From: Rhizobium sp. WYJ-E13
Lineage (GTDB): Bacteria > Pseudomonadota > Alphaproteobacteria > Rhizobiales > Rhizobiaceae
Direction of reading: 5' to 3'
DNA length: 64,000 nt
Assembly (NCBI RefSeq): GCF_018987265.1
Contig: NZ_CP076853.1
Coordinates: 4,286,228 to 4,350,227, forward strand
Below, one piece after another: positions 8,446 to 60,080 of this stretch. The notes under the pieces were generated by a model. That model searched no databases. It worked only from the letters and a program-made list of their open reading frames with translations, and had not been told where the DNA came from. Position 1 is the stretch's first letter, and the number at the start of each line of letters is the position of its first letter. Made by a program: the position numbers and the translations under genes.

Positions 8446-9549
8446 TCAGTCTCCGTCCGAAAAGGAGAAGCCCGCCGAAAGGCCGATCGCGGCGCCATAC
8501 TGGTCGCTGATCGTGGTGATGAGGTCGCGGCTTTCGGAAAGCAGTGTATCGAGCTTGGCCTTTTCCGCATCGCTGACGGCGACTTCGATATCCGGGTTCA
8601 GCTTGGAGACGCTGTCGATGATCGTCTTGAGCTTGGTGTCGATCGCATCGGCAACCTGTTTCTTCTCTGGCGGAAGCAACTCGGCCATGCCGGCTTTCTG
8701 CCAGAGCGTCCGGATGCCCTCGAGATTGGCGGCCATGGACTTCCAGGTATTCTTCGAACGCCAGTAGATCGCCATGCGCGGGCGGGCAGGCGTATCCTTG
8801 CCCTTGTAGAACTGCTCCAGCCGCTGGTCGCGGACATTTTCAGCACCATGGACGAGGATACCGAGAAGGGCGGTGACGGCCTCCTTGTTATCCATGAAAT
8901 CGTCGCTCTGCGGTCCGGGATGCTTCCAGCTCGCCTGCACACCGTCAGGCTTCTCCCAGGCCGCGACGACTTCGCCAGCCTCGCGCTGGATATTGCCGGC
9001 GACCGCCTGGCCGTAGAGGCAGCGGAAGCCGCCCTTCTGGTTGATCAGGTCGTCGGAACCATTGCCGTAGAGCACATATTCCAGCGCGGTCAGGCCCTGC
9101 AAGGCCACACTCTTGCCGGCGATGGCATCGACGGTCGCGTCCTTCGGATCGGCCTTGGCGATCAGCGCCTGAACCTGCTTGAGGCCGACACCCTTGCGGT
9201 CGGGATAGAAGAGGATGTGCTCGAAGAGATTGTTCTGGATGACAGGGCCGGTCTGCACGATCTCGATCGTCGACCAGTAGCGGATCGTATCGTCGAAGGC
9301 GGACTTGGCGCGATCGAGCGTCTGCTGCGTACCGGAAGCGCAAAGGTCGTTCATGGCGGTCGTCAGGCGTGCGGCCGATTGCTGCATGTTGCGGTAGCCG
9401 GGACGAATGACCTCATCGACGGCACGCTGCATGACCGATGGCACGGCATCCTCATTGAGCCCTGACGCGGACGGCGCGGCGCTCTGGGCGGCAGCCGATG
9501 TGGCAAGGCCGGTCAAGGCGAGGCAAAGGAGGGTGTGCCAGGGACGCAT
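8446..9549 (-). CDS. Imelysin-family periplasmic protein (second copy)
   Basis: A 367-residue imelysin (M75/EfeO-like) protein with an N-terminal signal peptide (MRPWHTLLCLALTGLATSAAAQ). The core GLTALEYVLYGNG near residue 150 corresponds to the imelysin G-x-H-x-x-E region, but the His is replaced by Thr-Ala-Leu context, so the metal site may be altered compared with the first copy at 11135-12412. Its start overlaps the stop of the DUF1111 gene by one base (TGATG), and DUF1513 follows after 4 bp. Probable role: periplasmic iron binding or delivery together with its neighbours. The two imelysins differ in length and are not a recent duplicate. Confidence 0.85.
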   Translation of the reverse strand: MRPWHTLLCLALTGLATSAAAQSAAPSASGLNEDAVPSVMQRAVDEVIRPGYRNMQQSAARLTTAMNDLCASGTQQTLDRAKSAFDDTIRYWSTIEIVQTGPVIQNNLFEHILFYPDRKGVGLKQVQALIAKADPKDATVDAIAGKSVALQGLTALEYVLYGNGSDDLINQKGGFRCLYGQAVAGNIQREAGEVVAAWEKPDGVQASWKHPGPQSDDFMDNKEAVTALLGILVHGAENVRDQRLEQFYKGKDTPARPRMAIYWRSKNTWKSMAANLEGIRTLWQKAGMAELLPPEKKQVADAIDTKLKTIIDSVSKLNPDIEVAVSDAEKAKLDTLLSESRDLITTISDQYGAAIGLSAGFSFSDGD

Positions 9550-11087
9550 CAGAGTGACTCCAGGAATGTAATCAGGGCCTCTCTATCGTCTTTTGACAGC
9601 GAGGAGAATGCGTTGCGGGCTTTTTCAGCTTCGCCGCCATGCCAGAGAATTGCTTCGGTGAGATTTCTGGCGCGGCCGTCGTGCAGGAAGAAGCTGTGTC
9701 CGCTGACAGTCCGGGTCAGTCCTATACCCCATAGCGGTGGCGTGCGCCATTCACGTCCGCTTGCAAGTCCCACTTGCTGTCCGTCGGCCAGATCGTCGCC
9801 CATGTCGTGGAGCAGGAAATCGGAATAGGGCCAGATGAGCTGGAAGGATTGCGCCTTCTCGGCCGTATCGCGTCGGGTGACAAACTTCGGAACATGGCAG
9901 GAAATGCAGCCCGAGTCGTAGAAAAGCTGCTTGCCGCGCAACGTATCGGCGAAGCTTGCCTTGCGGCGCGCCGGTACGGCAAGGTTCTCCGAATAGAAGG
10001 TGACGAGATCGAGCACCGGCCCGGGCGCCTCCTCGTTACCAAGCCGTTTCTGCACGCCATCAGGCATGGCGAGGCACTTTGTCTCAGCGGCGGTGCAGTC
10101 GCCATGTGCATCAGGTGCATCCGGTGTCGAAATGCCGATATCGTTGGAGAAGGCATCGGCGCTCTGGTCGCGCACATTGGCGTTCTGCGCCTTCCAGCCG
10201 AAACGACCGAGCGTGATCTCGCCGGTGCGATGGTCGCGTACGATGGCGGCCTTGCCGGATATGCCGTCGTGATCGAGATCATCGGGATCGGCATGCGCGA
10301 GAATATCCGCTGCGGGAATTGCCTCGATCAGCCCGAGGCCGATCATCGCCGGGGCGACACGCGCTGAGATCGTCGTTGCCGGGTCGAGCGACCCGTAGGC
10401 GAGATTCTTGGCGGAATAAGCGGGTTTACGCAGGCTGACCGTCTCCCCGCCGGCAAGCGTGACGGTCTCCTCGATATAGGTGACAGCGACCTTGCCTTCG
10501 GCGGCAAGCCCTGGAACCGCAAGATCCTGAAGTTGGTGGCCGTAAACAGGATCGGGGAAATTGATGACATCGGCGTCGGCGATTGCTTTTTCTTCCTCCG
10601 CGGTCTTCGCTGCACGGGCAATACGCAGGACCATCGAGGTAGCGCTTGGACCACCCTCCGGCGGTTTGCCGCGACCGTCATTGGCGTGGCAGCTCATGCA
10701 GGAACGGGCGTTGAAGAGCGGGCCGAGCCCATCGGAGGCTTGCGTAGAGGATGGCGCGGAAACCCAGAGCTTGCGGAAGAGCGCATTGCCAAGCCGGAAA
10801 TTCTGTTCTTCCTCGAAAGGGATATTGGCAGAGATATGCGAGAAGCTGTCTTCGTTAACCGGATCGATGGATGTTGCCGCACCTGCCTGCATGGCCTCGT
10901 AGGGCTCTGCCTTGCTGAAATCATGCGCCGGCCTGACAATATCGGCGACGCGCTTCAAATCGGCATCGGAAATATCGGTCCGTCTGGTCGGAAGATCGAA
11001 GGCGCTCGCGATCGCAACGGGAAGCCCGGCAAGCGAGGCGCAGAAAGCTGCGCTGACAAGGAGACGGCGGGCCGGTTTATGCGACAT
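9549..11087 (-). CDS. Dihaem oxidoreductase, DUF1111 (thiol oxidoreductase-like)
   Basis: A 512-residue exported c-type cytochrome. The N-terminus has a signal peptide ending around residue 29. There are two C-x-x-C-H haem sites: SCMSCHAND (Cys130, Cys133, His134) and GCISCHVPKF in the C-terminal half. DUF1111 proteins resemble dihaem peroxidases and have been called thiol oxidoreductases; the reaction is not firmly established. Lying between two imelysin genes, it probably performs a redox step in periplasmic iron handling, such as changing the oxidation state of iron before uptake. The spacing to the upstream imelysin is 47 bp. Confidence 0.88.
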   Translation of the reverse strand: MSHKPARRLLVSAAFCASLAGLPVAIASAFDLPTRRTDISDADLKRVADIVRPAHDFSKAEPYEAMQAGAATSIDPVNEDSFSHISANIPFEEEQNFRLGNALFRKLWVSAPSSTQASDGLGPLFNARSCMSCHANDGRGKPPEGGPSATSMVLRIARAAKTAEEEKAIADADVINFPDPVYGHQLQDLAVPGLAAEGKVAVTYIEETVTLAGGETVSLRKPAYSAKNLAYGSLDPATTISARVAPAMIGLGLIEAIPAADILAHADPDDLDHDGISGKAAIVRDHRTGEITLGRFGWKAQNANVRDQSADAFSNDIGISTPDAPDAHGDCTAAETKCLAMPDGVQKRLGNEEAPGPVLDLVTFYSENLAVPARRKASFADTLRGKQLFYDSGCISCHVPKFVTRRDTAEKAQSFQLIWPYSDFLLHDMGDDLADGQQVGLASGREWRTPPLWGIGLTRTVSGHSFFLHDGRARNLTEAILWHGGEAEKARNAFSSLSKDDREALITFLESL

Positions 11088-48335: not shown

Positions 48336-49211
48336 TCAGGAAAGCAGGCTCATCAGGTTTTCGGTGACGGGAGAGCGCTGGCTGCGGAGCACGGCGAGCG
48401 CCAGCCGCGCCACGGCAGGCGGGCCTTCGATCGGCCGGTAGGCGACACCTGCAAGTTTGATCTGAGAAATCGAGGCCGGGACGATCGAAACGCCGAGATC
48501 GGCGGCGACGAGATTGACGACTGAAGAAATCTGCGGCGCTTCCTGCGCCACGGTCAGTTCGAAGCCTGCCTCGCGGCATGCGCGCACGACATCGTCATAG
48601 AGGCTGAGACCGACAAGACGCGGAAAGAGGATAAAGGGTTCGTCGGCCAGCAAGGCGAGCGACAGCGTCTTGTGTTTTGCAAGCGGATGACCGGCGGGCA
48701 GTGCGACGACCATCGGCTCGTCCGGCAGGCGCTTCAGCCTGATGCCATCGGGATCGCTGAGCCCGGGACGCATGAAGGTCGCATCCAGCTCGCCGCGCTC
48801 CAGCTTCTGCATCAGCCCCAGCGTATTCATCTCCGTCAGTGACAGGCGCACCTCGGGCCAGCGGGCGCGAAAGCGGCGGATCGTGGTGCTGACCAGGGAG
48901 TTGAAGGCGGAGGAGGCGGTAAAACCGAGCGACAGCCGGCCGGTCTCGCCGCGATTGGCGCTTTGAGCCGCAAGCCGCGCCTTCTCGGCCGCCGCAAGGG
49001 ATGCCTTTGCCTCCGGAAGGAAAGCCGTACCGGCGAACGTCAGCTCCGCTCCGTGCGGCACGCGATGGAAGAGCATCGCCCCGATTTCGGTCTCGAGATC
49101 GCGGATCTGCTGGCTGAGTGGCGGCTGGCCGATGCCGAGGCGCGCAGCGGCCCGCGTGAAATTGGCCTCTTCGGCGACCGCCAGAAAATATCGGATATGC
49201 CGCAGCTCCAT
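48336..49211 (-). CDS. LysR-family transcriptional regulator (BenM/CatM-like)
   Basis: A 291-residue regulator. MELRHIRYFLAVAEEANFTRAAARLGIGQPPLSQQIRDLETEIGAMLFHRVPHGAELTFAG is the HTH of the BenM/CatM-like LysR group; the effector domain starts near residue 90. ATG 49211 has GGAG six bases upstream, so a TTG four codons earlier is not needed. Divergent from the MFS gene at 49303, which it probably controls; the 91 bp between them should contain the shared operator. Confidence 0.9.
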   Translation of the reverse strand: MELRHIRYFLAVAEEANFTRAAARLGIGQPPLSQQIRDLETEIGAMLFHRVPHGAELTFAGTAFLPEAKASLAAAEKARLAAQSANRGETGRLSLGFTASSAFNSLVSTTIRRFRARWPEVRLSLTEMNTLGLMQKLERGELDATFMRPGLSDPDGIRLKRLPDEPMVVALPAGHPLAKHKTLSLALLADEPFILFPRLVGLSLYDDVVRACREAGFELTVAQEAPQISSVVNLVAADLGVSIVPASISQIKLAGVAYRPIEGPPAVARLALAVLRSQRSPVTENLMSLLS

Positions 49212-49302
49212 CACTATCTCCAAAACCTATCAAGATCGCCAGTTTCATATATTGGACAAATGGAGGCGCCTTGACTAGATCGGAGGCAGGAAGGAATGAC
49301 AC

Positions 49303-50556
49303 ATGTCAGACTCTGCAATCCAAGACGTTGCCGGCCTGCGAACAGCCGAGGAGACCCACGCAAGACACTATCTGAGACGCGGCACCGGCGCCTATCGCCG
49401 CGCCAGCCTGGCGCTCTTCCTTTCCGGCTTCGCTACCTTCTCGCTGCTCTATTGCGTGCAGCCGCTGCTGCCGATCTTCGCGCAGGAATTTGCCATCAGC
49501 CCGGCCGAAAGCTCGCTGTCGCTGTCGCTCTCCACAGGCTTCCTGGCAATCGCCATCGTCTGCGCCGCAGCCGTCTCGGAGGGGCTCGGCAGGCGCAGTC
49601 TGATGTCGATTTCGCTGGTCGGGGCTGCCGTGCTAACGATCGCCACCGCCTTTGCGCCAAGCTGGCATCTGTTGTTGGTTATCCGCGCGCTGCAGGGCTT
49701 CGTGCTTGGCGGTGTGCCAGCCGTCGCCATGGCCTATCTTGCAGAAGAAATCGATCCGCGCGGCCTTGGCGCCACGATGGGGCTCTATGTCGGTGGCACG
49801 GCTTTCGGTGGCATGTCGGGCCGCGTGCTGACGGGGATCTTCGCGGAATATCTCTCCTGGCGGCCGGCCATATTCCTGATCGGCGCCATCGGTCTTGTCG
49901 CGGCGATCGGCTTCATCGCGCTCCTGCCACCCTCGCGCAATTTCGTGCGTCGCGCCGGCTTCGATCCGCAGTTCCATCTGAAGGCCTGGCTCGGGCATCT
50001 CGGCAATCCGGTGCTGCCCTTCATCTTCGCCATCGCTTTCTTTGCGATGGGCTCCTTCGTGACGATCTACAATTACGCCGGCTTCCGCCTCGTCGCACCG
50101 CCTTATGAGCTCAATCAGACCGAGTTGGGCTTGATCTTCACCGTCTATCTCTTCGGTATCGGCGCGTCCTCGATCGGCGGCATCCTCGGCGATCGCCTCG
50201 GCCACTTCACCGTGCTCCTGGCGGGCATCGTCATCACCGCAGCAGGCTGCGCGCTGACGCTCTCGGCGTCCCTGCCGCTCATTATCCTCGGCATCATCGT
50301 GCTGACGAGCGGTTTCTTCATGACGCATTCTGTTGCCAGCGGTCTCGTCGGCAAGCTCGCCGTCGGCACCAAAGGACACGCCTCCTCGCTCTACATGCTC
50401 GCCTATTACATCGGCTCCAGCGTCATGGGCTCGGCAGGCGGCTGGTTCTGGGCGATGGAAGGATGGGCTGCGGTCGTGTTCTTCACACTCATCCTGATGG
50501 CGTTGGCTTTTCTCTCTGCAATGGCCGCACGCCGGCTTGCCCGGCGCCCGTCTTGA
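49303..50556 (+). CDS. MFS transporter (YnfM/AraJ-like)
   Basis: A 417-residue inner-membrane protein with twelve hydrophobic segments after a 30-residue cytoplasmic start. LFLSGFATFSLLYCVQPLLPIFAQEFAISPAESSLSLS and SEGLGRRSLMSISLVGAAVL are typical of the YnfM/inner-membrane transport branch. Under likely control of the divergent LysR protein. Substrate unknown; arabinose, drugs and aromatic acids are handled by relatives. Confidence 0.88.
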   Translation: MSDSAIQDVAGLRTAEETHARHYLRRGTGAYRRASLALFLSGFATFSLLYCVQPLLPIFAQEFAISPAESSLSLSLSTGFLAIAIVCAAAVSEGLGRRSLMSISLVGAAVLTIATAFAPSWHLLLVIRALQGFVLGGVPAVAMAYLAEEIDPRGLGATMGLYVGGTAFGGMSGRVLTGIFAEYLSWRPAIFLIGAIGLVAAIGFIALLPPSRNFVRRAGFDPQFHLKAWLGHLGNPVLPFIFAIAFFAMGSFVTIYNYAGFRLVAPPYELNQTELGLIFTVYLFGIGASSIGGILGDRLGHFTVLLAGIVITAAGCALTLSASLPLIILGIIVLTSGFFMTHSVASGLVGKLAVGTKGHASSLYMLAYYIGSSVMGSAGGWFWAMEGWAAVVFFTLILMALAFLSAMAARRLARRPS

Positions 50557-50616
50557 CTTCCGGTCCGCAGCGATTAATTTAACCACTAGGTTAAATATAT
50601 GATCGGAGGAGCCATC

Positions 50617-51018
50617 GTGAAGAAGACCTACCATGGAAGCTGCCATTGCGGCGCCGTCGCCTATGAGGCTGGGCTCGATCTTTCGGCCGGCACCTTCAAA
50701 TGCAATTGCTCCGTCTGCCGTAAGAAACGCAGCTGGCTGGCGATCGTGCAGCCGGCCGATTTCCGGCTGGTCTCAGGCAGGGACCATTTGCGCGAATATC
50801 TCTTCGGCTCCGGCTCGATCCATCACCTCTTCTGCGAGACCTGCGGCGTGAGCTCCTTTGCTCGCAACGACAACGAGACGATCGGTCCCTTCATCGCCGT
50901 CGCCGTCAACTGCCTCGACGATGCGGATGCCGAAGAACTTGCCGCGGCACCCATCGCCTATTTCGACGGTCTGCATGACCGTTACGATGCAGCACCCGCC
51001 GAAACACGCTATCTCTGA
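50617..51018 (+). CDS. GFA/CENP-V-domain zinc protein
   Basis: A 133-residue Mss4-like protein. GSCHCGAVAYEAG, CNCSVCRKKRSW and FCETCGVSSFAR hold the Cys pairs that bind zinc in the glutathione-dependent formaldehyde-activating (Gfa) family; relatives have other roles. GTG 50617 is preferred, because CGGAGGA lies at 50603-50611 at good spacing; ATG 50599 would add six residues and sit before that site. It ends 11 bp from the convergent urocanase-like gene, so they are tail to tail. Confidence 0.87.
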   Translation: MKKTYHGSCHCGAVAYEAGLDLSAGTFKCNCSVCRKKRSWLAIVQPADFRLVSGRDHLREYLFGSGSIHHLFCETCGVSSFARNDNETIGPFIAVAVNCLDDADAEELAAAPIAYFDGLHDRYDAAPAETRYL

Positions 51019-51029
51019 GCGGCTGGCAT

Positions 51030-52742
51030 TCAGCCAAGCCGGATATAGGGCACGTCCTTCTTCGCCACTTCGTCCAGCGCCTCGTCATAGCCGGCGTCGG
51101 CATAACGCATGACGCCGAGCGCCGTATCGTTGGTCAGTGCATGGTCGAGACGTTCGTCAGCGGCTTCGGATCCATCGGCAACGACGGTCACACCGCAGCT
51201 CGTCATGTAACCGGCATAACCGCCGCCGCCCGAATGGACGACGACGAGGTCGGCCATCGAGGAGCAGAGCATCATCGCATCGATGAGCGGCCAGTCGGCA
51301 ATGGCGTCCGAGCCATCCTTCATGCGCTCCGTCATGATATTCGGATGCGCCATCGCGCCGGCATCGAGATGGTCGCGCGAGAAGGCGACAGGACCCTTGA
51401 GTTCGCCATTCGCAACCAGCTCGTTGACGCGCCGCGCCAGCGCCGTGCGCTCGCCGTGACCCAGCCAGGCAATGCGCGCCGGCAAACCTTCGAAGGGAAT
51501 ATGTTCGCGCGCCAGCCGGATCCAGTTGGTGATGATCTTGTTGTAGGGGAACATCTCTAGCAACAGGTCGTCGATCCGCGCGATATCGCTTTCTTCTCCC
51601 GACAGCGCCATCCAGCGGAAGGGGCCGATGGCGCGGGCAAAGAGCGGGCGGAGATACGCTTCCGTGAAGATCGGAATGTCGAAGGCATTGGTAACGCCGC
51701 CCTCGCGGGCCTGGGTTCGGATGAGGTTGCCGTTGTCGAAGACTTCCGATCCGCGCCTCTGGAACTCCAGCATGGCAGTCACATGCTCGACGATCGACGC
51801 GCGGCTCGCGGCCATGAGCTGGCCCTGGCCATGGTCACGCAGTCCTTTCACCTGATCGAGGCTCATGCCCTTCGGCACATAGCCATAAACGAGATCATGT
51901 GCCGAGGTCTGGTCGGTAACGACATCGGGCACGAGGCCGCGCCGGGCGATCTCCGGATAGATCTCCGCAGCATTGCCGACGAGACCGACAGAGAGTGCGC
52001 GCTTCTCCTTGACGGCGGCATCGATCATCGCGAGCGCACTGTCGAGGTCAGCAGCGATTTCCTGCAGATAGCCGATCTGCTGGCGCTTGCGGGCACGTTC
52101 GGGATCGATGTCGATGCAGAGGATCGCCGCACCCGCCATACGACCGGCGAGCGGCTGCGCGCCACCCATGCCGCCGAGCCCCGCCGTCAGCACGAAGCGG
52201 CCATGGAGATCGCTGCCGAAGCGCCGTTCGGCAATGCGCATGAAGATTTCATAGGTGCCCTGAATGACACCCTGGCTGCCGATATATTGCCAGGCGCCGG
52301 CCGTCAGCCCGCCCCAGCAGATCAGCCCCTTGCGCTGCAGCTCGTAGAAGACCTCAGCCTTCGCCCATTGGCCGACGATATTGCAATTCGCCATGATAAC
52401 GAGCGGCGCCTTGGCGTGGGTCTTCACGAGGCCGATCGGCTTGCCGGACTGGATCAGCAGCGTCTGGTCCTCGTCCATCTCGGTGAGAGCCTTGACGATG
52501 CCCCGATGCGCCGGCCAGTTGCGCGCCGCCTTGCCGAGAGCTGCATAGACGACGAGATTGTCAGGATCCTCGCCGACCGAGAGCACATTTTCCAGAAGCC
52601 GCAGCAGCGCTTCCTGCCGCCAGCCCTTGGCGCGCAACTCCGGTCCGCCGGGGATCGGAAATTTCGGATGGCGTGGGTTGGCCTTCGGCATCTTGGGTTC
52701 CTCGTCTTTCGTCGTCGGCGCATCCAGCACCGGTAATTTCAC
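51030..52742 (-). CDS. Urocanase-family hydratase, probable thiourocanate hydratase
   Basis: A 570-residue NAD-dependent hydratase. The family cores are kept: YAALGKAARNW, LTAGAWQYIGSQGVIQGTYE, GLGGMGGAQPLAG (residues 188-200, NAD loop), DQTSAHD and HADAGY-like MRYADAGYDEA. Urocanase has R-P-L-F-C with an essential Cys (Cys410 in Pseudomonas); here it is R-P-L-F-A (Ala369). So it is unlikely to be a standard HutU. With the altered lyase and DUF917 genes of the same operon, hydration of thiourocanate or another modified urocanate is inferred. Last gene; its start overlaps the TfoX-N stop by four bases. Confidence 0.82.
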   Translation of the reverse strand: MKLPVLDAPTTKDEEPKMPKANPRHPKFPIPGGPELRAKGWRQEALLRLLENVLSVGEDPDNLVVYAALGKAARNWPAHRGIVKALTEMDEDQTLLIQSGKPIGLVKTHAKAPLVIMANCNIVGQWAKAEVFYELQRKGLICWGGLTAGAWQYIGSQGVIQGTYEIFMRIAERRFGSDLHGRFVLTAGLGGMGGAQPLAGRMAGAAILCIDIDPERARKRQQIGYLQEIAADLDSALAMIDAAVKEKRALSVGLVGNAAEIYPEIARRGLVPDVVTDQTSAHDLVYGYVPKGMSLDQVKGLRDHGQGQLMAASRASIVEHVTAMLEFQRRGSEVFDNGNLIRTQAREGGVTNAFDIPIFTEAYLRPLFARAIGPFRWMALSGEESDIARIDDLLLEMFPYNKIITNWIRLAREHIPFEGLPARIAWLGHGERTALARRVNELVANGELKGPVAFSRDHLDAGAMAHPNIMTERMKDGSDAIADWPLIDAMMLCSSMADLVVVHSGGGGYAGYMTSCGVTVVADGSEAADERLDHALTNDTALGVMRYADAGYDEALDEVAKKDVPYIRLG

Positions 52743-53068
52743 TTGGCTGGCATCGGGTCCACGTAAGCGAGTGCCGCATCGATGAGACGCCGTCTCATGG
52801 CATCGTCGCCATAGACATCGGCATTGGCGCGCACCCAGCCATGCATGATCCGCTCGCCTGACAGCATCTGGATGACCCCGGGCAGAGCGAGCGCCCAGCC
52901 GTCATTGCCCTTGCCGAGACGCAGCAACATGCCGTCCTGGCGCGCGCAGCAGAGCAGGTTGCCGTTCAGCATGAAGGCCCAGCCGCCGAACATGGATTTC
53001 TCGCTCAAGCCCGGCCGATTGCCGAGCTCCTCGCGCATCAATTCTTCCAGGCCGGGATCGCGTGCCAT
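52739..53068 (-). CDS. TfoX N-terminal-domain protein
   Basis: A 109-residue protein made of the TfoX/Sxy N-terminal domain alone: LMREELGNRPGLSEKSMFGGWAFMLNGNLLCCARQDGMLLRLG. The domain is found in the competence regulator TfoX/Sxy and as a stand-alone protein of unknown role. It lies between DUF917 (3 bp upstream) and the urocanase homologue (4-base overlap), so it is translated from the same operon. No catabolic role is known; it may be a passenger or a folding/regulatory helper. Confidence 0.85.
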   Translation of the reverse strand: MARDPGLEELMREELGNRPGLSEKSMFGGWAFMLNGNLLCCARQDGMLLRLGKGNDGWALALPGVIQMLSGERIMHGWVRANADVYGDDAMRRRLIDAALAYVDPMPAK

Positions 53069-53071
53069 GCC

Positions 53072-54169
53072 TCAGGCCCTCGTCTCCAGTGCATAGCGCG
53101 CGATCTCGATGCCCATCGCCTTTTCGACGGACGGATAGACGGTCGGGTCGAGCACGCTGGCCGAGAGCGGAATGATGTCCTTCGGCACATGCAGAATGAA
53201 GACATGCATGCCGCTCTTGAGCTGGCCGACGGAGAGCGGTTCGCCTTCCTCGGAGAGCGTGGTGATGACGGCAGGGAAGGTTGCGACACGCATGCCGCTG
53301 GCATCATCGACAGCCATATATTCGTTCATCACATGCAAGGTCACGGCCTTGTCGCCGGCACCGACCGTGATCGTGCCGATGTCGAAAGCTTCCTTGGTAT
53401 AGACGACATCCTTCTTGGTGATCGTACCCTCGGCCAGGATATGCCCACCCGTCGTCTTGCAGATCGCGTCGATAACAGCCGATCCGCCTCTCTTTTCCGC
53501 TTCGATGATCGCTTCGCCGAGCCTCAGCGCCATCGAGATGCCGCCGAGCGCGGCATTCTTGCGAACATAGGAGGCGCGCAGCGGATTGCGGCAGCTGGCA
53601 ATGAAGCCACCGGACTGGTCGGCGGCCGCCCGCAACACCGGCGAAATCTTCGCCGTCGCACCCTTCACGACGAGCTCAATGTAACGGTTTTCCGACCGAT
53701 TGCCGCCGACGGCCGTTTGGATCATCTGCTCCGGCGAACCTGCCATACCGATCGATCCCATGTCGCCGGTGGGATGGGCGCGGATATCGCCAACCGCATC
53801 GACGACCTTGGTGCCAAGGATGGCCGAAGGCAGCCAGCCGTTCAGTGTCGAGGATTTACCGTTCTGGCCGATGATGAGGCCGGAGAGCTTTTCGCCGAGC
53901 GCCTCTTGCAGAAGCTGGACGGCTTTCACATAGTCGATGCCCTGCATCTCCCAGGGCGTGGTGGAGGCCGGCGCACCGATTGCCGCCGCCGTCGCGATCC
54001 AGTCGCTATCGCCAAGTTCGTCGATGGAGACGAGCTCAGGCTTGCCGACATTGACGGCGGCATAGCCGAGCATCCGGCCGTGATCGGCCCAGCCGCCACC
54101 GCCGGCCGCATAGACGGAACCGCCTTTGACGGCAGCTTCCACGTCCTTTTCAACCAATATGCGTCCCAT
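53072..54169 (-). CDS. DUF917 protein, possible thiohydantoin-propionate desulfhydrase
   Basis: A 365-residue DUF917 protein. VYAAGGGGWADHGRMLGYAAVNVG near the N-terminus and GDMGSIGMAGSPEQMIQTAVGGNRSENRYIELVVKG in the middle are the family hallmarks. To my recollection a DUF917-type enzyme removes sulfur from 3-(5-oxo-2-thioxoimidazolidin-4-yl)propionate in ergothioneine-degrading Burkholderia; that is from memory, not checked. The first 20 bp overlap the end of the M20 gene. In this operon it is the natural step between thiourocanate hydratase and hydantoinase. A role in another hydantoin pathway is possible. Confidence 0.7.
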   Translation of the reverse strand: MGRILVEKDVEAAVKGGSVYAAGGGGWADHGRMLGYAAVNVGKPELVSIDELGDSDWIATAAAIGAPASTTPWEMQGIDYVKAVQLLQEALGEKLSGLIIGQNGKSSTLNGWLPSAILGTKVVDAVGDIRAHPTGDMGSIGMAGSPEQMIQTAVGGNRSENRYIELVVKGATAKISPVLRAAADQSGGFIASCRNPLRASYVRKNAALGGISMALRLGEAIIEAEKRGGSAVIDAICKTTGGHILAEGTITKKDVVYTKEAFDIGTITVGAGDKAVTLHVMNEYMAVDDASGMRVATFPAVITTLSEEGEPLSVGQLKSGMHVFILHVPKDIIPLSASVLDPTVYPSVEKAMGIEIARYALETRA

Positions 54170-55430
54170 CGCCCCTCTCCTTGATCAAGTTCCGGTCCAT
54201 CTCGCGCACCGTTTCGAAAAGCACCGCGGCGCCGAGTGCTATGTCGTCATTTTCAGCCCACTCATCCGGCGAATGGCTGCGGCCTTCCCTGCAGGGCACG
54301 AAGATCATCGCAGCCGGCGCCACGCGGGCGATCCAGGCCGTATCGTGGCCGGCGCCTGATGCCATGAAGCGGTATTTGGCGCCGACCATCTCACAGGCGC
54401 GCTCCAGCGTGGAAAGCAGGCTCTTATCAGCAGGTGTCGGGAAATTGTCGGAGATGCGGTTCGGCGGCGCGATCGTCACGCCAAAGGCCAAAGCAAGCTT
54501 TTGCGTATGGCCGTCCAACCAGTGGCAGAAGGCCTCCATGTCGGCGCGGATTTCGGCCCGTCCATCGATCAGCAATATGACGCGGGAAGGAACGACGTTG
54601 GCGGCATTCGGTTCGATACGGAATTCGCCGACGGTTGCCGCAAAATGACCGGGTGTCTTGGCAAGTTCGCTGGCGGCATTGCGGATATCGAGGACGAGCT
54701 GCGAAGCGGCAACCAGCGCATCGGCGCGCGAATCCATCGGCGTCGTGCCGGCATGATCGGCGCGACCTTCGACGGTGATCTCGATGCGGGTAATGCCAGA
54801 TATCGCCGTGACGATGCCGATATCCTTGTGCTCAGTCTCAAGGACGGGGCCCTGCTCGATGTGCAGCTCCAGAAAACCGGCAATATCGGGCTTTTTCTCG
54901 GGGGTCAGTATGCCCGGCGACCCACCGACCTCGGCAATCGCTTCAGCAAGATCACGCCCCTCGACCATGCGGGAAAGCCATGCCTGAGGCAATTGCCCCG
55001 TCATGCCGCGGCTGCCGATGCAGGAGACCCCGAAGATACTGACCTCCTCGGCCAGGAAGTCGACGATCTCCAGATCATGGTCGAGGCGTATTTCCTTTTC
55101 CCGCAGCGCTCGCGCGACCTCCAACGCTGCAGCAACGCCGGCAATGCCGTCAAAACGTCCGCCATCCGGCACGGTGTCGGAATGCGAGCCGAGCATGATG
55201 ACGCCAGAGCCGGGTTTTAAGCCTTCCCGCCGGCCGATCAGGTTGCCGGAGGCATCGATGCGGGTATCCAGGCCGATCGCCCGCATGCGTGCCTCGAGAT
55301 AGGCGCGGCCTTCGAGAAAGAGCGGAGAAAAAGCCCGCCGCGTCCAGGGATGCCCCGGCTCGGTGATGGTGGAAAGGGCTTCGATATCCTCGGCGATCCG
55401 GCCGGGATTGACGGGCAGGTTGCGGCTCAT
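54150..55430 (-). CDS. M20-family N-carbamoyl-L-amino acid hydrolase
   Basis: A 426-residue zinc amidohydrolase of the allantoate/N-carbamoyl amino acid branch. GSHSDTVPDGGRFDG (His83, Asp85, Asp94), the double Glu of LAEEVSIFG (128-129) and LELHIEQGPVLE (His190) are the metal and catalytic residues; RADHAGTTPMDSRADAL is the lid-domain motif. It would split an N-carbamoyl amino acid into amino acid, CO2 and ammonia, here most likely N-carbamoyl-glutamate. ATG 55430 overlaps the stop of the hydantoinase gene by four bases, which fixes the start; a frame from 55544 has no motif before it. Confidence 0.9.
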   Translation of the reverse strand: MSRNLPVNPGRIAEDIEALSTITEPGHPWTRRAFSPLFLEGRAYLEARMRAIGLDTRIDASGNLIGRREGLKPGSGVIMLGSHSDTVPDGGRFDGIAGVAAALEVARALREKEIRLDHDLEIVDFLAEEVSIFGVSCIGSRGMTGQLPQAWLSRMVEGRDLAEAIAEVGGSPGILTPEKKPDIAGFLELHIEQGPVLETEHKDIGIVTAISGITRIEITVEGRADHAGTTPMDSRADALVAASQLVLDIRNAASELAKTPGHFAATVGEFRIEPNAANVVPSRVILLIDGRAEIRADMEAFCHWLDGHTQKLALAFGVTIAPPNRISDNFPTPADKSLLSTLERACEMVGAKYRFMASGAGHDTAWIARVAPAAMIFVPCREGRSHSPDEWAENDDIALGAAVLFETVREMDRNLIKERGDGTHIG

Positions 55431-56794
55431 GCCAGCACCTGTCGCGGCAGCGGGCGCACGAAGCGGCCGGCGCCGGGCTCCGCCAGAACCTTCGAACCTT
55501 CGGTGATCATTTGTCCGCGCAGCCAGGCCGCCGAGACCGTCCACGGCAGGCGCATGCCGTTATAGGGGCTCCAGCCGACGACATTGTTGCCGCTGGCCGA
55601 TGCATCATAGATCGTTTCCTTGGGTTCCAGCACGACGATGTCAGCATCCTTGCCCGATGTCAGCGCGCCCTTGATATGGTCGAGACGGAAATGCTTCGCC
55701 GGGTTCTCGGCCATCAGCTTCGCCGCCCAGGTCAAGGGAATGCCGCGCTCCAGGGCGCCCTTGACGAAGAGCGGCACCATGACTTCCAGACCCGGAACGC
55801 CCGATGCATTCGCCAGCATGTCCGGATTGGTCTTGCGGTTTTCCGACCAGCTCACATGGTCGGTCGACACCAGCCAGACGTTGCCTTCGGCAACCTTGCG
55901 CCACAGGGTTTCGACCTCGGCGCGGGGACGCACCGGCGGATTGATCTTCGCCTTGCCGCCGAGGCGCTTCACATCGTTTTCCTCGTCAAGTGTAAGGTAG
56001 TGAATGCAGCATTCGACCGTCGCCTCATAACCGTCGCGGCGATAGGCTCGGGCGATGTCATAACCCCGCCCGAGCGAGCAATGCACGACATGGGATGGGC
56101 AGCCGGTATTGGCGCCGGTCTCGAAGATCGTGTGCATGGCAAGCAGTTCGGTGATCGGCGGGCGCGACAGGCCATGCGCGCGCCAGTCGGTAATGCCGCT
56201 TGTTTTCACCTGCTCCATATAGGTGCGCACCGCCTCGTCATCCTCGTTATGCACGCCGGCCGCCAGCCCGGTTGGGGCAATTGCCGCAAAACAGGCGTCG
56301 AGCAGGGCAGGCGGAATGCGCGGGAAGCGTTTGGGATCGGTGCCGAAGGTGGAGAACTTGAAGGCGGCAACGCCTGCCTGCACCATTTCGGCGATGCGGG
56401 CGGGACCTTCCTCAGGATCGACTGTGCCGTAGAGCGCAAAGTCCACACGCGCCTGCGGGCCGGCGTGCTCGACCTTCTTCTTTACCGCCTCAGCCGAGCA
56501 GACGAGATTTCCCTCGTCATAGGGCATGTCGACGATGGTGGTCACACCGCCGGCAGCCGCCGAGCGAGTCGACCAGATGAAATCCTCCTGATCTTTCTGC
56601 GAGAGCGAATGGACCTGCGCGTCGATGGCGCCCGGCAGGATCAGCGCCTTGCCAAGCAGATGCCGTTCTTTGGCCGCAGGCGGTACGCCGAGGCCGACTT
56701 CCGCGATCTTTCCGTCGCGAACGGCGACATAGCCGCCTTCGAGAATACGCTCCGGCAGCACCACCGTGCCCTGCAGAACGAGATCGAAATCCAT
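55427..56794 (-). CDS. Hydantoinase/allantoinase-like amidohydrolase with Gln at first metal ligand
   Basis: A 455-residue cyclic-amide hydrolase. The first site, normally H-x-H, reads D-A-Q-V-H (Gln60, His62); the codon is CAG, so this is not a reading error. Later ligands are present: carboxylated Lys in GVAAFKFSTF (Lys146), His182 in VHNEDD, His238 in VVHCSLGRG, Asp312 in STDHVSW. Opening of hydantoin-5-propionate to N-carbamoyl-glutamate is inferred from the adjacent M20 gene. It follows the lyase gene by 27 bp and overlaps the M20 gene by 4. An altered or mononuclear metal centre is possible. Confidence 0.85.
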   Translation of the reverse strand: MDFDLVLQGTVVLPERILEGGYVAVRDGKIAEVGLGVPPAAKERHLLGKALILPGAIDAQVHSLSQKDQEDFIWSTRSAAAGGVTTIVDMPYDEGNLVCSAEAVKKKVEHAGPQARVDFALYGTVDPEEGPARIAEMVQAGVAAFKFSTFGTDPKRFPRIPPALLDACFAAIAPTGLAAGVHNEDDEAVRTYMEQVKTSGITDWRAHGLSRPPITELLAMHTIFETGANTGCPSHVVHCSLGRGYDIARAYRRDGYEATVECCIHYLTLDEENDVKRLGGKAKINPPVRPRAEVETLWRKVAEGNVWLVSTDHVSWSENRKTNPDMLANASGVPGLEVMVPLFVKGALERGIPLTWAAKLMAENPAKHFRLDHIKGALTSGKDADIVVLEPKETIYDASASGNNVVGWSPYNGMRLPWTVSAAWLRGQMITEGSKVLAEPGAGRFVRPLPRQVLA

Positions 56795-56821
56795 GCCGCG
56801 TCTCCCTCGATAGATCGAAAT

Positions 56822-58405
56822 TTAGATGATAGCCGGTTCCGGCGTCAGCCGCCCTTCGATGCGCTCGAGCGAACCGAGCGCGAAGAAATCGTCGAAGGAG
56901 GCGATTGGCACCTGCTCGATCAGCTTCGAGATGAATTCATCCGAGCCCAGTTCTTCCTCGATCGCCTCGACCTCGGCCGAAAGCGGCCGGTCGACCGTAT
57001 AGAAGGCCGCATGTTTGCGCACGACCTGATAGAGCATACCCGCGACACCCTTCGGCGTATCGCCGATAATATCGATCGCTTGTGCCGAAAGCAGGGCTTC
57101 CAGTGCGGCTAGACGCTTCAGCGCCCGCATCTGCCGGTCGAAGCGCTCGATGACGAGCGGCAGGAAAGCCGCCTCGTCCTCAAGGCCGGCCGCAACGACG
57201 AGCGATTGCGCCGAGACCGGGTTCGACATGGAGAGTACGCGCGAGAAGATTTCCCCCGCAAGCTTGATGATCGGCCCGAAGCCGGTGGCGATGCGACCGG
57301 GAGGCACGAGATTGACCGGCAGGCCGCGCCGCTGGCCGTTGCCGAGCAGGACGCAGCGGTTGAAGGCGTTGCGTGCCGCATGCGCCATGCAAAGCGCTGC
57401 CGATTCCAGGAGGATCGTCACATCAAGCGGTAGTGAGCCGCCTGAGGTCATCACCCGTCCTTCCACGACGACGGGATTGTCGTCGGAGCGGCCGGTGGCG
57501 GCAAGGATCTTGTGGCCGGTCGAAAGCAGGTTTTCGATAACAGCACCAAAAACCTGGGCGATCATGCGCAGGCTCAGCGCGTCCTGCACGTGGGTGGCGA
57601 CCGGCCATTCCCATTCGTCTGAGGCATTGCAAAGCCAGGCGCCGATCAGCGCCTCCCGCGCCGTGCCGACATGGCGCACGGCCCGCCAGGGATCGCGCGA
57701 TGCCCCGAGCGCACCGGAAGCCATCATGCCGGTTGCCAACAGCACACGGATCGAGGCGGCGGCATTGCGTGTCGTCTCGGCAGCGGCGGCGAAGCTGACG
57801 GCATTAACGCTGAGCGAGGCGAGGCTGTCGCGCGGCGCCATTTTCACCGGCTCCATGCCGGCTGCCTGGAAGGCTTCGCCCGCCTGCATGCGATTGCCGC
57901 GATAGATCGCTTCTCCGACGCCGGTTAGTACCGCGCCGATCTGGCCCATGAGACCGATATCGGCGCAGCCGATCGAGCCGGTGCGGCGTACGACCGGAAT
58001 GATGTCGGCCGAGAGCATTCGCATATAGGCGTCGATGAGATCAGGCGTACAGCCGACCTGGCCCGTCAGCGCCGTATTGACGCGCATCGCCATGGCATTG
58101 CGCACGACATTGCAGGAAAAGGGAGTGCCGGTGCCGAAGTGATGCGCGCGTACGAGCCCGAGATTGAAGGCGTCGAGATCCTCCGGCGACCATTCGACAT
58201 CCTTCATAGCGCCGACACCGGTGGTGGCGCCATAGACCGGCATGCCGGCCTCGATCGCATCTTCGACGATCATGCGCGCAATCTTCACGCGCTGCATGCC
58301 GATGCCAGAGGCTGAAAGCGCAACCTTGCCGGAGCCGATCCTCACCATCTCGGCAAAGCTCAGTGGCTGGCCGCTCAGTTCGATTCCGGGGCGTTCGTGC
58401 TTCAT
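56822..58405 (-). CDS. Histidine ammonia-lyase homologue without MIO triad, probable ergothionase-type lyase
   Basis: A 527-residue protein of the HAL/PAL superfamily. VYGATTGVG (Tyr58) and VQDALSLR (273-280) align with the HutH active site. In HutH the loop G-S-V-G-A-S-G-D forms the MIO cofactor from Ala-Ser-Gly; here it is G-S-I-G-C-A-D (143-149), so MIO cannot form, and HutH Tyr280 corresponds to Leu277. Elimination without MIO suits a good leaving group such as trimethylamine from ergothioneine or hercynine; this is inference. First gene of the six-gene operon; 91 bp separate it from ubiB upstream. HutH is the naive name but is not supported. Confidence 0.82.
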   Translation of the reverse strand: MKHERPGIELSGQPLSFAEMVRIGSGKVALSASGIGMQRVKIARMIVEDAIEAGMPVYGATTGVGAMKDVEWSPEDLDAFNLGLVRAHHFGTGTPFSCNVVRNAMAMRVNTALTGQVGCTPDLIDAYMRMLSADIIPVVRRTGSIGCADIGLMGQIGAVLTGVGEAIYRGNRMQAGEAFQAAGMEPVKMAPRDSLASLSVNAVSFAAAAETTRNAAASIRVLLATGMMASGALGASRDPWRAVRHVGTAREALIGAWLCNASDEWEWPVATHVQDALSLRMIAQVFGAVIENLLSTGHKILAATGRSDDNPVVVEGRVMTSGGSLPLDVTILLESAALCMAHAARNAFNRCVLLGNGQRRGLPVNLVPPGRIATGFGPIIKLAGEIFSRVLSMSNPVSAQSLVVAAGLEDEAAFLPLVIERFDRQMRALKRLAALEALLSAQAIDIIGDTPKGVAGMLYQVVRKHAAFYTVDRPLSAEVEAIEEELGSDEFISKLIEQVPIASFDDFFALGSLERIEGRLTPEPAII

Positions 58406-58451
58406 GTTCTCATCTCCATGGAGGCGAGACTAAGCGAGCCTCACATCTGGC

Positions 58452-58461
58452 GGGATATCCC
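58452..58461. promoter_or_regulatory. Candidate operator before the lyase operon
   Basis: GGGATATCCC is a perfect 10-bp palindrome 47-56 bp before the lyase start, flanked by imperfect CATCTGG / CAAATG arms. The position fits a repressor site controlling the six-gene operon, but no regulator gene is in the cluster. Confidence 0.3.
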
Positions 58462-58496
58462 AAATGCCGAACACATCATGCTTTTGTTGCTTCCTG

Positions 58497-60080
58497 TCAG
58501 CTCATGACCCAGGCAATATAGAGAAGCGTGAGCGCAATTATCCAGAGAGCTATCTTGGCGGAGCGGTTATGGCGCGCTTCCGCTTTGCCGATGGCCTCAG
58601 CCGTCTGCTCGTCGAAGCGCAACCCGTGCTCGCTCATATGCAGAAGCTGATGGTGGAATTTCTCCGTCTGGGCGGCAATTTCAGGTGCGGCTTCGGCAAG
58701 CTTTACGGCCGCCTTCAGCCCATCCTTGAGGTCGGTGACGATGCGCTTCGGGCCGAGATTGTTCTTGATCCAGTCGCCGACGACCGGCTCGGATGCCTTC
58801 CACATGTTGAAACGCGGATTGAGCATGCGCGAAACGCCTTCGACGACAACCATCGTCTTCTGCAGCATCACGAGCTCGGGTCGCGTCTGCATGTCGAAGA
58901 GCTCGGTCACCTCGAAGAGCAGCGTCAACAGCTTGCCCATGGAGATCGTCTCGGCCGGCTGGCCATGGATCGGCTCGCCGATCGCCCGGATCGCCTGGGC
59001 AAAGCTCTCGATATTGTGGTGGCCGGGCACATAGCCTGCCTCGAAATGCACTTCGGCCACCCGGATGTAATCGCGGGTGATGAAGCCATAGAGGATCTCG
59101 GCAAGGAAGCGGCGCTCCTTCTTTCCGAGGCGCCCGACGATACCCATGTCGACGGCGACGATCATGCCGCCGGCATCGACGAAGAGATTGCCCGGATGCA
59201 TGTCGGCATGGAAAAAGCCGTCACGTAGCGTATGACGCAGGAAAGACTGGATCAGCGTATCGGCAAGCTCGTTGAGATCGTGGCCGGCGGCGCGCAGCCC
59301 CTCGACATCGGACATCTTGACGCCGTCGATCCACTCCATGGTGATGACGTCGCGGCCCGTGCGCTCCCAGTCCACCTTCGGCACGCGGAAGCCGGGATCC
59401 TTCTCGGTATTTTCGGCAATTTCCGAAAGCGCGGCTGCTTCCAGGCGCAGGTCCATCTCCACCTTGGTGGTCTGCTCCAGCGTCTTCGTCACCTCAACGG
59501 GCCGCAGGCGGCGGCTCGCCGGCATGAAACGTTCCTGCATATGGGCAACGAGGTACATCGCTTCGATGTCATGGGCAAACCGCGCCCTGACACCCGGCCG
59601 CACGACTTTGACGGCAACCTTTTTAGGTCCTGCCGGCGTGTCGACCTCTGCAGCATGCACCTGGGCGATAGAGGCTGCGGCAATCGGATCGCCGAAGCTC
59701 GCATAGAGATCTGTGATCGGACGTCCGAGCGAGCCCTCGATATTCGCCTTGGCGGCAGCCGCGGGGAAAAAAGCCATCCGGTCCTGCAATTGCGACAAGT
59801 CGTCGGCAAATTCGACGCCGACGACATCGGGACGCGTCGCGAGAAACTGGCCGATCTTCACATAGGACGGCCCCAGCCGTTCAACGGCTTTAGCCAGCCG
59901 GTCGCTGCGCTTCTGGGATTTGCTTCGATTGCGGGCGAACATGCCCACGAAGGATTTCGCCAGGCTGATCGATGGCGGCAGACCCTCCGAAGGCAGGGCC
60001 GAGATGACGCCTTCGCGCACCAAAATCCAGCCGACCCTTGCGAGCCTGAAATATGCTCCGAAAGCACTCATGCGGATCAA
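58497..60080 (-). CDS. ubiB: UbiB-family ubiquinone biosynthesis kinase-like protein
   Basis: Atypical kinase/ATPase needed for ubiquinone synthesis. The 527-residue protein has the K-x-G-Q motif [17 protein letters not shown] near residue 77, [13 protein letters not shown] (the Ala-rich loop), [14 protein letters not shown] and [10 protein letters not shown] as catalytic loop and DFG-like element, and a C-terminal membrane helix ([21 protein letters not shown]). Start overlaps the ubiE stop by four bases. Forms the ubiE-ubiB operon. Membrane associated. Confidence 0.95.

Follow-up and report, generated by a model that had tools for sequence, protein, structure and literature searches.

A probable ergothioneine-utilisation operon with a divergent lyase in Rhizobium sp. 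WYJ-E13

Gene content and layout of the operon

The window analysed here, a stretch of 64,000 nucleotides from Rhizobium sp. WYJ-E13 (contig NZ_CP076853.1), carries six leftward genes at 51030-58405. A preliminary description of this DNA had assigned them to lyase, hydantoinase, M20, DUF917, TfoX_N and urocanase families and read them as an operon for the catabolism of ergothioneine or another modified histidine; a list of open reading frames (ORFs) and a Pfam scan bore out all six genes and their families. On the minus strand, starting from the first gene, they are predicted to encode a lyase of the histidine ammonia-lyase (HAL)/ergothionase fold that lacks the 4-methylideneimidazol-5-one (MIO) group and is proposed to be an ergothionase (Lyase_aromatic, 56822..58405, 527 aa; PF00221, 277 bits); the hydantoin-5-propionate amidohydrolase ErtD (55427..56794, 455 aa; NF058538, 787.6 bits, cut-off 600); the M20-family N-carbamyl-L-glutamate amidohydrolase ErtE (54150..55430, ~426 aa from its ATG; NF058540, 621.4 bits, cut-off 520); a thiohydantoin desulfurase (DUF917, now S-Me-THD_N/C, 53072..54169, 365 aa; NF058529, 605 bits, cut-off 440); a small TfoX_N-domain protein (52739..53068, 109 aa; PF04993, 40.1 bits, cut-off 30.1); and a thiourocanate hydratase of the urocanase family (51030..52742, 570 aa; NF058530, 1053.3 bits, cut-off 930).

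From lyase to hydratase, the junctions consist of a 27-base gap, overlaps of 4 and 20 bases, a 3-base gap and a further 4-base overlap, as first described. The last of these presumes a GTG start for the hydratase at 52742, with an ATG lying 51 bases further downstream. For the M20 gene the listed ORF opens with a GTG (55544); since its best family matches take up only from residue 39 onward, the start is probably the ATG at 55430. A scan of 50500-58700 returned three promoter-like sites against 2.0 expected and two terminator-like sites against 4.5 expected. The lyase gene lies 91 bases downstream of a gene at 58497-60080 that is UbiB-type, a label read off the sequence. Pfam and NCBIfam scans agreed with the earlier statement that the operon has no imidazolonepropionase or formiminoglutamate enzyme; these belong to a separate hut cluster (hutH, hutU, hutI and hutF) on contig C2 of the same genome.

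The post-lyase enzymes and the lyase

We used the NCBIfam ert models NF058530, NF058529, NF058538 and NF058540 with their curated cut-offs, and four of the six operon proteins, all but the lyase and the TfoX_N protein, exceeded these cut-offs as equivalogs of the ergothioneine pathway. By contrast, the hydratase reached 735 bits on the model for the S-methyl version of its substrate, below the cut-off of 880, and the desulfurase reached 285.2 bits on the S-methyl model NF058532, below the cut-off of 450. The plasmid operon of Agrobacterium tumefaciens Ach5, our positive control, scored as S-methyl-thiourocanate hydratase (975.8 bits, cut-off 880) and S-methyl-thiohydantoin desulfurase (555.1 bits, cut-off 450), whereas the HutU of the Rhizobium host failed NF058530 (672 against 930) and scored 968 on the hutU model. 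These controls indicate that the models tell the thiourocanate and S-methyl pathways apart. The best Protein Data Bank match of the operon hydratase is 7ned (817 bits; labelled there as a urocanate hydratase), with which its C-terminal part agrees at places where 1x87 and 2fkn, both urocanases, diverge (HPNIMTE versus SPNRETE is one such case). Because the hydratase and the desulfurase pass the non-methyl models and fail the S-methyl ones, with the Ach5 operon giving the opposite pattern, thiourocanate is well supported as the probable product of the lyase, which would make ergothioneine its natural substrate.

The lyase has lost the MIO-forming triad, reading GSIGCA-DIG where the HutH of the host reads GSVGASGDL. 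Ergothionase is described as lacking MIO in PMC13405746, and the operon lyase is therefore expected to work through acid/base residues. Its best match among solved structures is the Treponema denticola ergothionase 6s7j (161 bits), followed by a probable HAL (133 bits). Five residues, K68, N110, N201, D308 and K381, are common to the operon lyase and the lyases of T. denticola, Burkholderia arboris (a stand-in for the ergothionase of Burkholderia sp. HME13) and Paracoccus denitrificans. The two HutH proteins and the YLTH-type lyase in the comparison have none of the five; Y58 and E409 also match the ergothionases but occur in HAL too. The positions are compared by conservation and may or may not be catalytic. 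The operon lyase resembles the T. denticola and Burkholderia ergothionases in having a HAL fold without MIO and these five residues, but differs in being only 29-32% identical to them, in carrying Cys147 where the classical enzymes have Glu (residue 142 in the 6s7j chain, within GE(A/G)D) and in forming a separate clade.

In a lyase tree, HALs and a Deinococcus lyase split from the ergothionases and the operon-lyase clade with support of 100/98 and with long-branch warnings, and the operon lyase fell outside the classical T. denticola/Burkholderia clade, in a clade of its own on a long branch. The T. denticola lyase was weakly placed (97/39). Given the warnings and this weak placement, we use the tree only for the separateness of the operon-lyase clade. 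The operon lyase is most likely a second ergothionase lineage that stands in for the classical one in some members of the family, a reading of its substrate drawn from sequence and gene context.

Proposed pathway and alternative readings

Fungi and many bacteria make ergothioneine, a sulfur-containing antioxidant. The chemistry of its breakdown is already known; the Seebeck group reportedly established a five-step pathway in vitro. We consider it highly probable that the six genes form an ergothioneine-utilisation (ert) operon; most likely the host imports ergothioneine and degrades it to glutamate, with trimethylamine, sulfide, ammonia and CO2 as the other products. The non-MIO lyase would eliminate trimethylamine from ergothioneine to give thiourocanate. 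As their families suggest, the hydratase would then convert thiourocanate to a thiohydantoin propionate, the DUF917 protein would exchange sulfur for oxygen with release of sulfide to yield hydantoin-5-propionate, ErtD would open the ring to N-carbamyl-glutamate and ErtE would free ammonia and CO2, leaving L-glutamate. No match to EgtD was found in the host genome, so ergothioneine would have to be imported, and we can only guess that an OsmF-like betaine ATP-binding cassette (ABC) system encoded elsewhere might do this. Compared with the five-step pathway, the operon is alike in all four post-lyase enzymes, each above its curated cut-off, but differs in a lyase of separate lineage, an extra TfoX_N gene and the lack of a transporter within the operon.

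Several observations weigh against or qualify this reading. The hydratase also exceeds the generic hutU cut-off (694.6 versus 375), and a generic Zn-dependent hydrolase model, NF009531, outscores the ErtE model on the M20 protein (791.7, cut-off 486). The lyase is only 29% identical to 6s7j and 32% to the B. arboris lyase, and the TfoX_N protein has no place in known ergothioneine chemistry. The preliminary description had proposed a structural comparison of the lyase with ergothionase: 6s7j was the top match in a first look, but a second look tied it with HALs, and we rejected the fold match as proof of an ergothionase because it does not discriminate between the two.

An alternative that we regard as improbable is that the operon in truth serves to degrade ergothioneine in an oxidised or otherwise modified form, such as the sulfonate, with the Cys147 lyase specific for it and the other enzymes processing its product. 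The distinct lineage of the lyase and its Glu-to-Cys change are in keeping with this, as is the citation in PMC13405746 of an A. radiobacter lyase and of a paper on a pathway for ergothioneine sulfonate in A. radiobacter. However, the adjacent desulfurase, above its cut-off (605 versus 440), would be superfluous if the sulfur left as sulfite, and another operon in the family, in genome G491, combines a classical-type lyase with the same downstream gene types. Catabolism of S-methyl-ergothioneine, in which the hydratase and desulfurase would act on S-methyl intermediates and methanethiol would be released, seems less probable still: both proteins do match the S-methyl models (735 and 285 bits), but below the cut-offs, whereas they exceed those of the non-methyl models, and with the Ach5 operon giving the reverse we rejected this assignment. 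The Ach5 pAt operon (L130, L169) shares hydratase-, DUF917-, ErtD- and ErtE-type genes with the Rhizobium operon, but its hydratase and desulfurase are S-methyl-specific and it includes a glutathione S-transferase, a molybdopterin S/N-oxide reductase, a glycine-betaine ABC transporter and a YLTH-type lyase.

We consider it least probable of all that the operon is a further hut-like route acting on hercynine, N-methylhistidine or plain histidine. The HutH- and HutU-related folds of the lyase and hydratase, and the score of the latter on the generic hutU model, would fit such a route; but Pfam and NCBIfam scans of the operon found no HutI, HutF or HutG, a separate hut cluster is present on C2 of the host, the loss of the MIO triad makes elimination of ammonia unlikely, and the scores of hydratase and desulfurase mark both as thio-specific. 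An ordinary second hut pathway was rejected on these grounds. Hercynine, offered as an alternative in the preliminary description, also found no support, since on chemical grounds the lyase product would then be urocanate, whose breakdown should call for no thiourocanate hydratase and no desulfurase. The central proposal of that description, ergothioneine catabolism rather than hut, gains support from the four equivalog scores and the S-methyl control, with ergothioneine remaining the presumed substrate of the lyase.

Distribution, lyase exchange and transport

From 162 relatives we retained 80 loci. All five ert genes (lyase, ErtD, ErtE, desulfurase and hydratase) were present in 76 of these 80, with identical order and strand in 76 of 76, so the arrangement is not due to chance. 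The other four were a contig ending early (L008) and three lone lyases beside a UbiB-type gene (L079, L080 and L082). Hydratase above the cut-off was encoded elsewhere in the genomes of L080 and L082 (G399 and G400), which also have ErtE, desulfurase and hydratase in a separate cluster and in which no ErtD reached its cut-off (best 208 and 202 bits); the genome of L079 had only pieces below the cut-off. The closest named loci are from Rhizobium sp. (lyase identity 96-97%), and the laboratory strain Rhizobium johnstonii 3841 has an orthologue of the lyase with 90% identity (L017:10001-11584). At most 2 kb separates lyase and ubiB in 79 of 80 loci, and an operon so placed just downstream of ubiB suggests that Rhizobium-type soil bacteria use ergothioneine as a nitrogen and sulfur source.

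In 68 of the 76 complete loci the TfoX_N gene, in whose 109-aa product PF04993 is the only Pfam match, separates the desulfurase gene from that of the hydratase. The other eight loci lack it, which marks it as associated but dispensable; it occupies the same place in a plasmid cluster of Shinella sp. PSBB067 (53% identity). Our guess is that it is an accessory protein, perhaps regulatory or a chaperone.

Across 247 sampled genomes of the family, the host included, the lyase (E <= 1e-100) was found in 25 and the hydratase (above its model cut-off) in 33, all 25 lying within the 33. Likewise, the 12 genera with lyase all fell inside the 16 with hydratase, of 109; the Fisher p value for co-occurrence was 1e-27 by genome and 6e-13 by genus, uncorrected for phylogeny. 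The two genes were at most 10 kb apart in 23 of the 25 genomes. In G568 the lyase adjoins ErtD and the hydratase is at the edge of another contig, and in G628 both are on one contig with 180 kb between them. One stop codon was present in ten of the 25 lyase matches, which in G307, the one of the ten examined, is the natural end; G413 gave a partial match. Only 6 of 398 genomes in a phylum-wide sample had a hydratase above the cut-off, indicating that the pathway is uncommon.

Eight family genomes had the hydratase without the operon-type lyase (G491, G563, G621, G627, G549, G448, G546 and G465). Three of them, of one genus (G491, G563 and G621), have a classical-type GSVGEADI lyase near the hydratase; in G491, the one whose region was read, it belongs to the ert operon and shows 59% identity to the P. 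denitrificans lyase and 36% to that of T. denticola. The G627 cluster is interrupted by a contig edge inside ErtD. The remaining four have ertDECB and one Lyase_aromatic match each, of the MIO type. Parts of a tripartite ATP-independent periplasmic (TRAP)-type carboxylate importer stand beside ertDECB in two of these four, namely DctP, DctQ and DctM in G549 and a DctP at the contig start in G448; in G546 and G465 no transporter family was found in six flanking ORFs (three each). We also read 13 stretches from among 35 plasmid records with a DUF917 match. Clusters on plasmids of Paracoccus aminophilus JCM 7686 and Thalassospira marina have annotated TRAP genes, with no lyase in the plasmid stretch read. 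Four loci (L157, L160, L121 and L124) carry ertDECB without a lyase match and with adjacent TRAP genes, and are candidate thiourocanate scavengers. The idea that lyase-less clusters always come with TRAP genes was rejected, given the flanks of G546 and G465, annotated amino-acid ABC genes in L123 and L132, and SBP_bac_3 in L165.

We tentatively propose, at somewhat less than an even chance, that a second ergothionase lineage with Cys for Glu carries out ergothioneine lysis in part of this Rhizobiaceae-type family and that related bacteria split the pathway, some having only ertDECB and living on thiourocanate that others release. Judged against the open-licence literature, what is new here is this putative second lineage, the common but dispensable TfoX_N gene and the lyase-less versions of the operon. 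In that literature we found no paper treating thiourocanate hydratase together with ergothioneine, and among the matches listed for ergothioneine and Rhizobium, judged by title and the opening of the abstract, none dealt with breakdown by rhizobia. According to PMC13405746, which cites work on T. denticola, Burkholderia and A. radiobacter, Burkholderia extracts contained ergothionase only after growth on ergothioneine as the sole nitrogen source; ergothioneine degraders were counted there from one Burkholderia query, with a warning about divergent homologues. Searches built on classical ergothionase may miss the operon-lyase lineage, and such counts may therefore be too low. The two unlike lyases in otherwise equivalent operons also make it possible to test directly what residues define an ergothionase.

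Some loci fitted poorly: Microvirga L128 has DUF917, ErtD- and ErtE-like genes with no hydratase or lyase match, Niallia L131 has DUF917 only, and G289 (L117) has ErtD, desulfurase and hydratase with no M20 or operon-type lyase match. On a plasmid of Rhizobium sp. CC-CFT758 (L132, ~9048-10081), the DUF917 match is split into two adjacent parts (88% and 79% identity) and the gene may be broken. A plasmid of Deinococcus sp. KNUC1210 carries another divergent version, an Ert-like cluster in which the lyase (L129:10039-11574) has TSLGES-DL and the hydratase, with a score of 767, stays below the cut-off of the thiourocanate model.

With regard to transport, genome G484, whose lyase is of the operon type (60% identity), encodes a betaine-type ABC importer (OpuAC PF04069, permease PF00528 and ATPase PF00005) between the lyase and ErtD, and the Rhizobium host has a homologue of its binding protein (69% identity) elsewhere, at C1:117303-118229. 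Among solved proteins, this OpuAC-type protein is closest to those of the glycine-betaine type (493 bits) and the OsmF type (361 bits), with EgtUC at ~102 bits, and we therefore rejected the importer as proof of ergothioneine transport. We presume that lyase-containing operons import a betaine and that some lyase-less ones import the carboxylate thiourocanate. A search of phage records with the G484 lyase returned five records with weak partial matches. Within the window, a divergent major facilitator superfamily (MFS) transporter gene and a LysR regulator gene lie at 49303-50556 and 48336-49223; we did not adopt them as the transporter and regulator of the operon because such a pair also occurs near lone lyases without ertBCDE, adjoining in L079 and ~2.3 kb away in L080 and L082.

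Close to its hut cluster on C2, the host has another HutH-like gene without the MIO triad (L119:6644-8137, GSAG---YLTH). The encoded protein scores 471 against a hutH cut-off of 539 and shows 54% identity to the lyase next to the A. tumefaciens S-methyl-type operon. It might be a betaine lyase, perhaps for hercynine, that feeds urocanate into hut, although this is a guess. The host genome also has two HODM_asu-like matches; proteins of this kind can belong to dimethylamine monooxygenase.

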